This document shows positions 21,552 through 24,473 of a stretch of DNA of 24,473 nucleotides, in pieces; the first letter of the stretch is position 1; every line of letters begins with the position of its first letter. Source of the stretch: a virus; IMG/VR virus record IMGVR_UViG_3300022074_000362, positions 1 to 24,473 of that record. The stretch is one strand, 5' to 3'. The position numbers and the translations under genes are program-made. The notes beneath the pieces are model-generated. The model had not been told where the DNA came from and made no database searches. It saw only the letters and a list, made by a program, of their open reading frames with translations.

Positions 21552-21894
21552 TTCAAAACCTCCAAATATAGTTACCCAAACGCATTATCATGTTATGTGA
21601 TTCTATATGTCAAGCATTTATTTGTTAACGATTTGAGTTTTCTTTATAGGGCTGTGAAATTCATTTTTTTAAAAAGTTTTTTTTTTAAAATAATTTGGTG
21701 TTACAAGTGTTACAAGTGTTACGAAATCTCTGAGTTGCCCAGACAACGCGGTTTTCAGCCGTAACACTTCTTCCTGTTTTCGTAACGTTCGTAACACTTC
21801 TCTATATAGGAAAGTGGGTTTTAGACCTCTTTGTTTAACAAATGTTAGCTTTTTTGGCAGAATCCGTAACATCCGTTACATTTAGGAAGCTGAT
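21552..21894. other. 343-base gene-free control region between early operon and terminase
   Basis: The region contains, in order, the leader and P1 promoter of the minus operon (to 21613), a T/A-rich tract (about 21660-21697, with long T and A runs), and a cluster of GTGTTACAA tandem copies and CGTAAC/GTTAC words. It ends at the terminase ribosome site AGGAAG. No ORF of reasonable size is seen. A TATATA at about 21804 could be a plus-strand -10 for the terminase gene, but no good -35 was found. Confidence 0.7.
21584..21613 (-). promoter_or_regulatory. P1: sigma70-like promoter of the minus-strand small-gene operon
   Basis: Read on the minus strand: perfect TTGACA (21613-21608), 18-base spacer, GATAAT (21589-21584). 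The expected start of RNA falls at the GGG near 21577, giving a leader of about 26 bases that carries the GGAGG site. It is the best promoter match in the window and sits exactly upstream of the first gene of the operon. Confidence 0.75.
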
Positions 21895-21935
21895 ATGAAC
21901 GATAAAGTTGTAACGAAAATTGAAGAACGTAACGA
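21698..21935. repeat. GTGTTAC / CGTAAC repeat cluster (iteron- or operator-like)
   Basis: There are three tandem 9-mers, GTGTTACAA at 21698 and 21707 and GTGTTACGA at 21716. Inverted relatives are CGTAACAC at 21760 and 21790, CGTAACG at 21781, CGTAACAT at 21865 and CGTTAC at 21874. The word recurs inside the start of the terminase gene (GTAACGA at 21910, CGTAACGA at 21928). Both orientations are present. Confidence 0.75.
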
Positions 21936-22437
21936 CCGTAAATTAACTAATCGACAGCGAGAGTTTGCTAAATACTTTGTTGAAGGCATTTACTCGAATG
22001 CTGAGTGTGCAAGAAAGGCAGGATTCTCTCCTACCGTTGCTCATATTCAAGCATCAAAATTGATCAATGGCAGAGATTTTCCTCATGTGCTTGAGTACAT
22101 TAAGGAACTTCGTGAAGAAAGGGAGCGTCGTTATGGCGTTACCTTAGTGGGCCAGATGAAACGTCTTGATGAGCTATCTCGAGCGGCTGAAGATGCCAAC
22201 CAATTTTCTGCAGCGATTAACGCAGAAAAGATTAGGTCTGCTTTAGGTGGATTAACTATTGATCGTCGTGAGACCACCAATAAATTAGATGATCTGTCTA
22301 GAGCGGAAGTCATAGCAAGATTGATTGATCTACAGAAAAAGTATCCAACGGCTTTCATCGACGGAGAGTTCAAAGATGTCACGGGGACCGGAAGCGAACT
22401 TTTGGAACACAATTCGCAAAAATCTTCCAAAGGGTAG
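21895..22437 (+). CDS. terS: Terminase small subunit (TerS, Terminase_2-like)
   Basis: This protein recognises phage DNA at the packaging site and delivers it to the large subunit. Of 180 residues, about 17-80 contain the family-like L-T-N-R-Q-R-E-F-A-K-Y-F-V-E-G and N-A-E-C-A-R-K-A-G-F-S-P-T-V-A-H, an HTH-type DNA-binding domain. A helical oligomerisation region follows (G-V-T-L-V-G-Q-M-K-R-L-D-E-L) with A-I-N-A-E-K-I-R-S-A-L-G-G-L. The start ATG has AGGAAG 7 bases ahead. The large subunit is not next to it here. The repeat cluster upstream and within its 5' end is a candidate recognition site. Confidence 0.85.
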   Translation: MNDKVVTKIEERNDRKLTNRQREFAKYFVEGIYSNAECARKAGFSPTVAHIQASKLINGRDFPHVLEYIKELREERERRYGVTLVGQMKRLDELSRAAEDANQFSAAINAEKIRSALGGLTIDRRETTNKLDDLSRAEVIARLIDLQKKYPTAFIDGEFKDVTGTGSELLEHNSQKSSKG

Positions 22438-22813
22438 TCAAGCTTGGCGATTAGAAAACCGTGTTGCGGCAGGGATGCCTGACTGTTACATCATGATTGA
22501 TGGCTATCCATTGTGGATTGAGTTGAAAGTAACAAAATCTAATAGCGTGAAGCTATCACCACAACAAATCGCTTGGCATATGGCTCATAGTCACGCAGGA
22601 GGCCATAGTTTGATCTTAGTTAAGCGGTCTACCACGGGATGCCTATTTTTATTTGAGGGCCGTGGAGCGCGGGACGTTGCCTCTCAGGGCCTGCTTTCGG
22701 AGGCTATTTTTTCTGGGGTCGGGGTTCGAGAAGCTATAGACGCGGCTATCGGGTCGGTTCGGGATCATTTCGGGGCCTTATTCGGGTCGGGTTCGGGTCG
22801 GGTTCGGGGATAG
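22376..22813 (+). CDS. PD-(D/E)XK nuclease (VRR-NUC/resolvase-like) with repeat-encoded tail
   Basis: The ATG at 22376 has GGAG 9 bases ahead; a longer frame to 22325 lacks a better site. The gene overlaps the terminase gene by 62 bases. The core, R-L-E-N-R-V-A-A-G-M-P-D36-C-Y, then W-I-E49-L-K51-V, then K-L-S-P-Q63-Q, is the G-x-P-D...E-x-K...Q pattern of VRR-NUC-type nucleases, which cut branched or flap DNA or resolve junctions. The last residues (F-G-S-G-S-G-R-V-R-G) are encoded by the TTCGGG repeat and are probably not part of the fold. Beside a terminase gene it may process DNA for packaging or recombination. Confidence 0.87.
   Translation: MSRGPEANFWNTIRKNLPKGSQAWRLENRVAAGMPDCYIMIDGYPLWIELKVTKSNSVKLSPQQIAWHMAHSHAGGHSLILVKRSTTGCLFLFEGRGARDVASQGLLSEAIFSGVGVREAIDAAIGSVRDHFGALFGSGSGRVRG
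22749..22809. repeat. TTCGGG array A, at and in the 3' end of the nuclease gene
   Basis: Imperfect repeats begin at 22749 (TCGGG, TCGG, TTCGGG). The regular part is 22781-22808: TTCGGG, TCGGG, TTCGGG, TCGGG, TTCGGG. It has five GGG runs on the plus strand with 2-3 base loops, enough for a G-quadruplex. Translated, it makes the Gly/Ser/Arg tail of the nuclease, whose stop is at 22811. Confidence 0.9.
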
Positions 22814-22826
22814 ATAAACAAAAATT

Positions 22827-22848
22827 AAGCCCCCGCGAACGGGGGCTT
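22827..22848 (-). terminator. Terminator hairpin with UUCG/CGAA tetraloop
   Basis: Nine perfect pairs (AAGCCCCCG with CGGGGGCTT) surround a tetraloop at 22836-22839. On the minus strand the loop is TTCG and the stem is followed by AATTTTTG, so it is best as a terminator for minus-strand RNA. The stem without a T run could also slow plus-strand RNA from the nuclease gene. Confidence 0.8.
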
Positions 22849-22856
22849 GGGGTGAC

Positions 22857-22874
22857 AGTAGTTGGAGGACTACT
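22857..22874. other. Perfect hairpin displaying GGAGG in its loop
   Basis: On the plus strand AGTAGT pairs with ACTACT around the loop TGGAGG. The next plus-strand ATG (22889) is 20 bases beyond the GGAGG, and its frame is antisense to a real gene, so it is not an obvious ribosome site. Purpose unknown. Confidence 0.55.
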
Positions 22875-22896
22875 AAAACGGATTGTCCATGAAAAA

Positions 22897-22915
22897 GGCC
22901 CTAGTGTCTAGGGCC
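22897..22915 (-). terminator. Terminator of the 22928-23823 minus-strand cassette
   Basis: GGCCCTAG pairs with CTAGGGCC around a 3-base loop. On the minus strand it is followed by TTTTTC. It lies 12 bases after the stop of the 58-aa gene. Confidence 0.85.
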
Positions 22916-22927
22916 GTAGGCTTTTGG

Positions 22928-23104
22928 TTAAGCTTTAACTATCTTTTGTTTTTTGTCATACCGTATAAAGATGTTCGGCAAATTGTCCCGGATGCTCAAA
23001 TAAGAACCGCTAACCGCGCACACAAAATCCTTTCCGGTGCGCCAATCAGCTAACGCTGCTTTTTTACTCTTATAGTCGCGCCCGTAGGCTGGTAGTACTG
23101 TCAT
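22928..23104 (-). CDS. Small conserved-type phage protein (58 aa)
   Basis: An uninterrupted 59-codon frame starts on the stop of the upstream gene (ATGA). The protein MTVLPAYGRDYKSKKAALAD continues with W-R-T-G-K-D-F-V and ends N-I-F-I-R-Y-D-K-K-Q-K. The P-A-Y-G-R-D-Y-K-S-K-K motif is one I associate with a common tiny phage protein of unknown function. Its coupling to the larger gene and the terminator just past its stop argue strongly that it is expressed. Confidence 0.8.
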   Translation of the reverse strand: MTVLPAYGRDYKSKKAALADWRTGKDFVCAVSGSYLSIRDNLPNIFIRYDKKQKIVKA

Positions 23105-23823
23105 GATGATACCCTCGCTATCAATTCTGGATTGTCGATAATAAAAGGCGAATCCGATTTTTTCGCCTCATGTCCTTTCACGCGTAACCCGATGACGTCA
23201 TCGACGCGCTCGAGGTTCGCGATATCCGATAAATCGCCATCGTACACGTCACGCCCTAAAAACGTTTTAGGTAGTCCGCCGCGGAATACCGCGGTTATTG
23301 GGACGCGATGCGCTAAGGCTTTTTTAACCTGATTCTGGAATCCGTCCGCCATGGAATAAGAAAACATTAACCGATAATTACTAGGCGTTTTGCCTAATCG
23401 GTTGGCGCGTTTCGTGTAGTCATAAGAAAACAAGGCGCGAAACTCATCCGCAAAATCGAGATAGTTTTCCCAAGGAATATCTGAAAGAACATTTAACCGC
23501 GTTACCGGTACGACGTTTTGCCGGTCGCACAAATTGATAAAGTTGTGCAGTTCTCTTTTGAGCATAGCCAGAAACTTGTCTTGGTCTGAGTGCCATAGAT
23601 TGGTTCGCGTTTGCCGTCCGTCGATAACATTCTGCATAATGCCGCGACCGCTCGAGCGCAAGCAATCATTCGCGCACTCTGCCAACCAACGTGCAGGACA
23701 AATAATGTCGTCAGGCATCAACGACAAGGAAAGGATGCGGATACTGGACCCGCCGATTAAGCTTTTTTCCGATTTCGCAACTTTGGTATTGGTTGCGTCG
23801 ATTGATGATAAACGGGAAAACAT
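23101..23823 (-). CDS. Conserved phage protein resembling the GP88-type family (240 aa)
   Basis: A three-cysteine cluster C42-x7-C50-x3-C54 in I-I-C-P-A-R-W-L-A-E-C-A-N-D-C is followed by V-T-R-L-N-V-L-S-D-I-P-W-E. Further motifs are F-S-Y-D-Y-T-K and S-N-Y-R-L-M-F-S, then A-V-F-R-G near residue 180 and V-I-G-L-R-V-K-G-H-E-A-K-K. This order is like a group of phage proteins called gene-product 88-like, whose role is unknown; I am fairly, not fully, sure of the link. The Cys cluster could hold metal or Fe-S. It is the first gene of a self-contained cassette, with its own promoter and the TTTGGAGGTTTT ribosome site directly before the ATG. Confidence 0.78.
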   Translation of the reverse strand: MFSRLSSIDATNTKVAKSEKSLIGGSSIRILSLSLMPDDIICPARWLAECANDCLRSSGRGIMQNVIDGRQTRTNLWHSDQDKFLAMLKRELHNFINLCDRQNVVPVTRLNVLSDIPWENYLDFADEFRALFSYDYTKRANRLGKTPSNYRLMFSYSMADGFQNQVKKALAHRVPITAVFRGGLPKTFLGRDVYDGDLSDIANLERVDDVIGLRVKGHEAKKSDSPFIIDNPELIARVSS

Positions 23824-23851
23824 AAAACCTCCAAATATTAGTTACCCTCGC

Positions 23852-23882
23852 ATATTACATCACATTACATCACAACAAACAA
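23852..23882 (-). promoter_or_regulatory. P2: promoter-like element related to P1
   Basis: On the minus strand: TTGTTT (23882-23877), 19-base spacer, TAATAT (23857-23852), then GCG and a GGGTAACT leader almost the same as that of P1. As in P1, the -35 is preceded by GC. The -35 is weaker than in P1. Assignment leans on the shared layout. Confidence 0.6.
23854..23873. repeat. Two tandem copies of ATTACATCAC in the P2 spacer
   Basis: The exact 10-mers at 23854-23863 and 23864-23873 fall between the -35 and -10 of P2 and overlap the -10, one helical turn apart. That is a good position for a repressor or activator site, or the copies arose by slippage. Confidence 0.75.
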
Positions 23883-23889
23883 GCTCTTT

Positions 23890-23936
23890 TTCGGTTCGGG
23901 TTCGGGTTCGGGTTCGGGTTCGGGTTCGGGTTCGGG
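23890..23936. repeat. TTCGGG array B: seven perfect tandem hexamers
   Basis: A partial TTCGG is followed by seven uninterrupted TTCGGG units (23895-23936). The plus strand has seven GGG runs separated by TTC, a near copy of the vertebrate telomere unit GGGTTA and well able to form a G-quadruplex. The array lies 12 bases upstream of the P2 -35 and just downstream of two minus-strand terminators. Confidence 0.97.
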
Positions 23937-23948
23937 TTCTATAAATAA

Positions 23949-23970
23949 AAAACACGCAAACGCGTGTTTT
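23949..23970 (-). terminator. Second terminator of the 24051-24338 cassette
   Basis: AAAACACGC pairs with GCGTGTTTT (9 pairs, loop AAAC). On the minus strand it is followed by further T residues (TTATTTAT), and on the plus strand the stem itself ends in TTTT, so it can act in both directions. Confidence 0.8.
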
Positions 23971-24015
23971 ACTAATACTTAATCTAAAGACAAAGAACAA
24001 AGCAACAGATAAAAA

Positions 24016-24035
24016 AGAGGGCCTCCCGGCCCTCT
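24016..24035 (-). terminator. First terminator of the 24051-24338 cassette
   Basis: AGAGGGCC pairs with GGCCCTCT around TCCC. On the minus strand it is followed by TTTTT. It lies 15 bases past the stop of the 95-aa gene; a second terminator follows 45 bases on. Confidence 0.85.
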
Positions 24036-24050
24036 CTGCTTACTCCTGCG

Positions 24051-24338
24051 TTAAATGTTGTTTATCATCTCGCGAACGCGCGCGTCTATTTCTTCTGGCA
24101 TTTCAATTTCGTCATGCTCGAATGTGTTACAAGCGTTCATGTTCAAACCATAGAACCGTGCACACTGTGCAATGAACGGCATATGCTCAATGACCAAGGC
24201 GCGATTGTGCGTGTCCAAAGGCGCGAACGCACGATGGCATTCTGCAAGAGCCTGCTCGAGCTCATAATGGCGCGAGTCCGCGATGCCAGCATCGTAAAAC
24301 AACTCTCTCAACTTATTCTCAAAACGATTATCTCTCAT
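24051..24338 (-). CDS. Hypothetical protein in its own cassette (95 aa)
   Basis: A mainly helical, acidic protein: MRDNRFENKLRELFYDAGIA, then H-Y-E-L-E-Q-A-L-A-E-C-H-R-A-F-A-P-L and P-F-I-A-Q-C-A-R-F-Y-G-L-N-M-N, ending E-E-I-D-A-R-V-R-E-M-I-N-N-I. Two cysteines and several histidines are present, with no clear metal site. No family is recognised. It has its own promoter candidates, a structured leader and a double terminator, so it is an independent unit. Confidence 0.75.
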   Translation of the reverse strand: MRDNRFENKLRELFYDAGIADSRHYELEQALAECHRAFAPLDTHNRALVIEHMPFIAQCARFYGLNMNACNTFEHDEIEMPEEIDARVREMINNI

Positions 24339-24339
24339 T

Positions 24340-24373
24340 TTAGTTCTCCAACTAAGACGGGCGGAATTGCCCG
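24340..24373 (-). promoter_or_regulatory. Structured leader: 5' GC hairpin plus hairpin with Shine-Dalgarno in loop
   Basis: On the minus strand CGGGC pairs with GCCCG (24373-24358, 6-base loop). Then TTAGTT pairs with AACTAA (24355-24340) around the loop GGAG, which is the ribosome site. The start ATG follows one base after the second stem. Confidence 0.65.
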
Positions 24374-24378
24374 ACCCT

Positions 24379-24408
24379 TTTATGATACATGATGCTACAT
24401 AATGTTAA
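24379..24408 (-). promoter_or_regulatory. P3a: proximal promoter candidate for the 95-aa gene
   Basis: On the minus strand: TTAACA (24408-24403), 18 bases, CATAAA (24384-24379). RNA would begin near GGG at 24377-24375, placing the GC hairpin at its 5' end. The -10 is weak (four of six). Confidence 0.45.
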
Positions 24409-24415
24409 AGCTTTT

Positions 24416-24437
24416 TTCGGTTCGGGTTCGGGTCGGG
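24416..24437. repeat. TTCGGG array C: short degenerate array
   Basis: TTCGG, TTCGGG, TTCGGG, TCGGG. As in array B it is joined to a run of T's and an AGC (reading toward lower coordinates) just upstream of a minus-strand promoter candidate. It has three GGG runs plus one GG. Confidence 0.9.
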
Positions 24438-24472: not shown

Positions 24473-24473
24473 C

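Follow-up and report, generated by a model that had tools for sequence, protein, structure and literature searches.

Genome-specific tandem arrays suggest fixed frames around exchangeable accessory cassettes in the terS-terL island of a phage clade

Why does a phage carry one hexamer, TTCGGG, in three separate tandem arrays beside its terminase small subunit gene, terS? The question is raised by the IMG/VR record IMGVR_UViG_3300022074_000362, a linear virus fragment of 24,473 bases that we analysed as a whole (the window). Array A (22748-22809, + strand) mixes TTCGGG and TCGGG units, has a regular core at 22781-22809 and lies at the 3' end of a nuclease-like gene. Array B (23890-23939, +) consists of TTCGG, seven exact TTCGGG units and TTC, between a terminator and the promoter of a GP88-family gene, and array C (24416-24437, +), with two exact TTCGGG units and one TCGGG, lies upstream of the promoter of a gene for 95 amino acids (a.a.). 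A scan of the window for (TTCGGG)2 with at most one mismatch returned nine 12-mers, all inside the three arrays and all on the + strand. This is far beyond chance, since 0.06 were expected from shuffled sequences and none of 100 shuffles reached nine. A first-pass annotation of the letters had described three arrays in a single orientation, seven perfect units in B and no array elsewhere; the sequence and the scan agree on each count, and no TTCGGG array beyond A, B and C was found across the window. As the best-supported reading, the comparisons below suggest that the arrays are part of fixed terminator-array-promoter frames around exchangeable accessory cassettes.

An assembly error, a concern that the first-pass annotation had raised, can be dismissed for arrays A and B, because a sister phage from a different assembly (L226; 91% nucleotide identity) has both letter for letter. 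L226 sits on a contig of a metagenome-assembled genome (MAG) of Maricaulis, which is a weak hint that Maricaulis is the host. Outside the phage contig, this MAG has only four (TTCGGG)2 matches, none of them in arrays, and a host-derived satellite was thus rejected as the source. The same count bears on a rival explanation, in which the arrays are Chi-like sites whose orientation matters and which shield ends cut during packaging or promote recombination with a host nuclease, the unit following a change of host. The fixed orientation, the GC-rich 5-8-mers and the confinement to the part of the island near terS would suit such sites, but the array-free MAG does not, and no Chi sequence is known for the hosts of these phages; we give this explanation hardly any credence. 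As a separate observation, the window (at 24473) and the contigs of L127, L161 and L184 stop inside an array or no more than about 40 bp from one, a pattern that could mean that assemblies break at arrays or cassette variants.

The TTCGGG arrays exemplify a clade-wide feature of mostly marine phages. No close relative by DNA was found in the annotated phage collection; the DNA polymerase of the window is 48-54% identical to those of HTVC027P, HTVC023P, 023Pt_psg01 and DSL-LC04, and TerS, the large subunit TerL, the DNA polymerase and the capsid protein match HTVC027P and HTVC023P, both phages of Pelagibacter, and DSL-LC04. IMG/VR provided 558 confirmed TerS relatives, the best 80 of which were kept for comparisons. 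Among 81 terS regions, 19 had arrays of the TTCGG type, 51 had arrays of the TGCG type (CTGCGGCC, ACCCTGCG, CTTGCGC, TGCGCCC and other units) at places matching those of TTCGGG, and 11 had neither. The relatives' arrays are GC-rich, with units of 5-9 bp, and lie in an island between terS and terL, as do the GCTTGNN arrays of the isolate HTVC027P and the CGGCCCA arrays of the assembled genome DSL-LC04. Relatives therefore carry arrays beside terS, where the first-pass annotation had proposed to look for them. Where records are near-complete, a genome's repeated unit is confined to the terS-terL interval; the GC-rich repeats found elsewhere have unrelated units and lie mostly in coding regions. 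When (TTCGGG)4 was searched for without regard to phage group, 111 stretches were returned, at least 12 of which carry terS, terL or portal genes of this group; many of the remainder resemble coding repeats.

The array unit belongs to the genome, not to the site. Within a genome, arrays of the first slot and later arrays share a 5-mer cosine of 0.70, which was reached in none of 5000 permutations, and between genomes the similarity falls from 0.63 at a TerS identity of at least 0.85 to 0.37 at 0.7-0.85 and 0.19 below 0.7. The array upstream of the GP88 gene illustrates this: its unit is TTCGGG in the window, L121 and L118 and CTGCGGCC in L117, L119 and L120, and the promoter side of the gene can be aligned up to the array edge across both unit classes. 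On the TerS tree, supported branches require at least four changes of the TTCGG class. Slippage acting independently at every site is ruled out because the units are common to all arrays of one genome, in line with the earlier proposal that the arrays form one family for which simple slippage is insufficient.

The arrays also occupy a regular position. Outside the first slot, 60 of 76 arrays have a terminator, oriented like the accessory genes, no more than 160 bp upstream, as against 3 of 79 on the other side (shuffles, 2%). Since the arrays in this count were chosen by core motif on the terS-sense strand, it is no evidence for orientation; that evidence comes from the commonest repeated 8-mer of each locus, which is found in the terS sense and hardly ever on the opposite strand. 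Exceptions include CCGCAG in L132 and L134 and CAGGGCG in L163. The promoter part of the frame is less well supported than the terminator part. Downstream sigma-70-like boxes such as TTGACT N16 TATAAT recur when read by eye, but automatic scoring of array-side sequence did not beat composition shuffles of AT-rich sequence, and the promoters therefore rest on manual reading of -35 and -10 boxes and on HTVC027P, where gp33 and gp34 have TTGACA boxes directly abutting the arrays.

In the window, arrays B and C stand directly upstream of minus-strand accessory genes. The GP88-family gene (23101..23823, -; PF17338, E 6.5e-24; phrog_1617) has a promoter-like site of modest consensus score, TTGTTT N17 TGTAAT (23854..23882, -), 7 bases from array B, which on its other side is adjoined by a hairpin with a T-run (23949..23970, -). 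Downstream of GP88 in the same unit is a 58-a.a. gene, also present in L226 (22928..23104, -), and the unit ends at a terminator hairpin adjoining array A (22827..22848, -). The 95-a.a. gene (24051..24338, -) belongs to no known family; it has a promoter-like site, TTTAAC N16 TATCAT (24382..24409, -), and a terminator hairpin (24014..24037, -). Two further features of such spacers were seen. A 10-bp direct repeat, ATTACATCAC (23854-23874), overlaps the -10 region of the GP88 promoter-like site and is partly kept in relatives. In L118, L121 and L226 (8833-8852), the TTCGGG array is separated from the adjacent terminator by another array, which is C-rich (CCCTCCCA, CCCA, GCCC); the single composite of it that was tested gave no folding signal.

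The position upstream of promoters is the main attraction of a rival explanation in which the arrays are a shared regulatory site, that is, operator clusters of one phage or host factor that times all array-preceded promoters, with unit and factor co-evolving. Arrays directly upstream of promoter-like sites, including B and C, and a single unit per genome agree with this, as does HTVC027P: gp33 and gp34, whose boxes its arrays touch, alone form their own temporal cluster by RNA-seq (PMC12753301), although they may cluster merely through having their own promoters. Against it, array A is not upstream of a promoter, the distance from array to promoter ranges from 0 to about 60 bp, units of one genome can be anywhere from 5 to 8 bp long, and no candidate factor was identified. 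Promoter-side regulation, which the first-pass annotation had listed, is thus possible, and we consider the shared regulatory site a reasonable alternative but not a likely one.

A difference between two close phages suggests a connection of the frames with cassette exchange. Comparison of the window with L226 shows no change in arrays A (29 bp) and B (47 bp) while the flanks diverge by about 9%; B is unchanged in sequence and copy number, and C is one unit longer in L226. In place of the 95-a.a. gene between B and C, L226 has two different genes (window 24016-24370; L226 8296-8715). The edges of the swap fall at the terminator T-run (the terminator hairpin of the 95-a.a. gene being the left edge) and between the -10 site and the start codon, homology to L226 resuming at 24371; these are the ends of frames, with the arrays within. 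Arrays thus mark cassette borders, as had been supposed, the gene between B and C having been swapped while A and B stayed. Moreover, the same gene families recur in different slots beside different unit classes, and relatives of the 95-a.a. gene (family c52) occur in other slots. Among close pairs, 24% of the breakpoints at which a block of homology ends lie within 30 bp of an array, compared with 11% of random positions.

These observations suggest a mechanism in which the arrays would be the fixed, genome-specific core of spacer frames in the accessory-gene island between terS and terL, each frame running, in the direction of the accessory genes, from terminator T-run to array to promoter, with array A, where the nuclease gene ends, as the outer border of the island. 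Phage or host recombination would swap gene cassettes at the frames, which would act as repeated homology, and the same recombination, with some slippage, would keep the units of one genome alike. Since every array and the majority of cassettes share one orientation, cassettes would be gained, lost or replaced through exchange between frames, but would not be inverted. That the frames are stretches of homology for gene exchange whose units recombination keeps alike is the function we favour, tentatively and as somewhat short of probable. The array itself may contribute homology or a binding site to a frame, or nothing.

Several results weigh against this function. The comparison with L226 is a single pair, and its breakpoints are beside the arrays, not in them. 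Breakpoints at which homology resumes are not enriched at arrays (10% vs 11%), and array differences can themselves end an alignment, which qualifies the enrichment at block ends. The gain of a cassette in L163 relative to L170 maps to a repeated leader sequence instead of an array, and cassettes closer to terL often lack arrays. Within the window, the spacers with B and C have the array unit and the adjacent T-tract in common and little else. Recombination at the frames is itself deduced and not directly observed. Accordingly, the arrays mark frames around swapped genes, and crossover at the arrays themselves is only a candidate process. A bolder version would make the arrays a genome-wide code of spacers private to this phage group, one repeat word per genome that a recombination or transcription factor reads at every accessory cassette, which would keep a swappable island ordered and change as a set when lineages diverge; we regard it as speculative and rather unlikely.

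Might the arrays instead be neutral, low-complexity spacers, short repeats that form and are retained where nothing is transcribed between terminator and promoter, and that recombination makes uniform in passing, to no advantage? Outside the first slot, arrays evolve about as fast as their flanks (0.091 vs 0.117 substitutions), insertions and deletions amount to 188 bases per kb in arrays and 140 in flanks, and units vary freely between relatives, all of which agrees with neutrality. It would not readily explain arrays at matching sites across most of the clade and mostly in one orientation, the constant copy number of array B at 9% divergence, or two recurring cores, TTCGG and TGCG, regained independently. 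We therefore think purely neutral spacers doubtful. The same insertion and deletion rates, with B unchanged in L226, led us to reject a hypervariable microsatellite of the phase-variation type.

Proximity to terS could point to packaging. The hexamer repeats of the pac site of phage P1 are bound by the P1 packaging enzyme, and the arrays could likewise be pac-like sites bound by TerS: they occur only downstream of terS, within about 3 kb and in one orientation, and the first overlaps the terS-adjacent gene. TerS has a very variable recognition-helix stretch. With the rest of TerS controlled, however, the similarity of this helix did not covary with that of the arrays (partial r 0.04, p 0.19; 0.07, p 0.08) and instead tracked the 9-bp repeats that precede terS (partial r 0.26; 0 of 2000 permutations). 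The packaging mark envisaged in the first-pass annotation, if read by TerS, is therefore improbable. The spacer upstream of terS has features of its own. The window contains iteron-like triplets of 9-10 bp there (21698-21722 and 21862-21881), and the homologous spacer of relatives likewise, often as two mutually inverted sets. The 9-bp repeat unit before terS can differ even between phages whose TerS is identical (TTGAGTCA in L162/L170, GTAAACACC in L163/L171). These triplets are a possible operator, origin or packaging site.

The G-rich unit had also prompted the proposal of a G-quadruplex (G4), which as a rival explanation would act on replication, transcription or recombination. A and B indeed fit the G4 pattern of four GGG runs with short loops, as do 29 of 45 TTCGG-class arrays, and Xanthomonas and Nostoc have heptamer repeats between genes that fold into G4 in vitro (PMC4692102). 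Array C, with three GGG runs, does not fit, and in the TGCG class the homologous arrays (CTGCGGCC, ACCCTGCG, CTTGCGC) almost never qualify (6 of 112). The capability thus stands for A and B, but we rejected G4 as the common function, and a G4 element as the explanation of the arrays is very improbable. A structured RNA or DNA element was also rejected, the mean folding z in the accessory-gene sense being +0.23 and -0.80 against shuffles for the two classes, although a few TGCG-class arrays singly reach z below -3. The likeness of the unit to the telomere repeat GGGTTA, remarked on in the first-pass annotation, was not put to a test, and no sign of a telomere function was seen. As a side observation, the low-GC contigs (34-39%) L006, L038, L110, L097 and L114 have arrays of GGGTTA, the actual telomere-type hexamer, near TTCGGG arrays, and L038 and L114 carry terL of this phage group.

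No description of such arrays was found in the literature searched, and known systems each match in part. Morons are accessory genes with their own promoter and terminator, and the cassettes here are similar promoter-gene-terminator units; to our knowledge, a tandem array between cassettes is not part of the moron concept. Closer in logic are the promoter and stem-loop cassettes (PeSLs) of T4-type phages, reportedly defined in Arbiol 2010 and Comeau 2014. PeSLs are mobile regulatory cassettes of promoter plus stem-loop, proposed to mediate gene shuffling (PMC4503421), and, as here, terminator and promoter lie between accessory genes in a variable region. PeSLs consist of promoter and stem-loop motifs and occur in T4-like myoviruses, whereas here a tandem array with a genome-specific unit stands between terminator and promoter and the phages, with their matches to HTVC027P, HTVC023P and DSL-LC04, are unrelated. 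Of the PeSL traits, the terminator is present at the 60 of 76 arrays and the promoter by eye only, and the motif repeated at many sites is the array unit with its T-tract, not the rest of the spacer. The start-associated sequences (SAS) of cluster K mycobacteriophages and their extended form (ESAS) are likewise genome-specific, nearly all in one orientation and placed before many accessory genes across gene families, but SAS spans 13 bp at the ribosome binding site and is not a tandem array upstream of a promoter (PMC3203893). The GGGNATC heptamers of Xanthomonas and Nostoc are also GC-rich tandem repeats between genes, stable in position and G4-capable, but they have one unit and lie in bacterial chromosomes, while the present phages have many units, most of them not G4-capable (PMC4692102).

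Phages of the HTVC023P/HTVC027P type are common in the ocean, and most of the differences between them lie in accessory genes. If the frames mark exchange sites, cassette turnover would be measurable from sequence alone, and the stretches between arrays would offer a way to find accessory genes in uncultured phages. The joint change of the unit across a set of arrays raises the question of concerted evolution in viruses.

Array A differs from the others in being coding. It is not intergenic and encodes the tail FGSGSGRVRG of the nuclease-like gene (22325..22813, +), which overlaps terS (21895..22437, +; PF03592, E 2.9e-8; phrog_51). The gene matches phrog_2165 (E 3.7e-17), phrog_93 (endonuclease) and phrog_5702 (Holliday junction resolvase) and has no Pfam match; its product is probably a nuclease of the restriction/Holliday-resolvase type, VRR-NUC-like. 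In 38 of 47 genomes, a count in which the nuclease frame was not reliably located in a few of the remaining genomes, the gene reads through the array into LRP-rich or GSG-rich tails, because A-poor arrays contain almost no stop codons. In a 57.9-kb relative (L207), GAGCCT is repeated about 41 times immediately before terL (G011:C1:25320-25570), where it may be a coding repeat.

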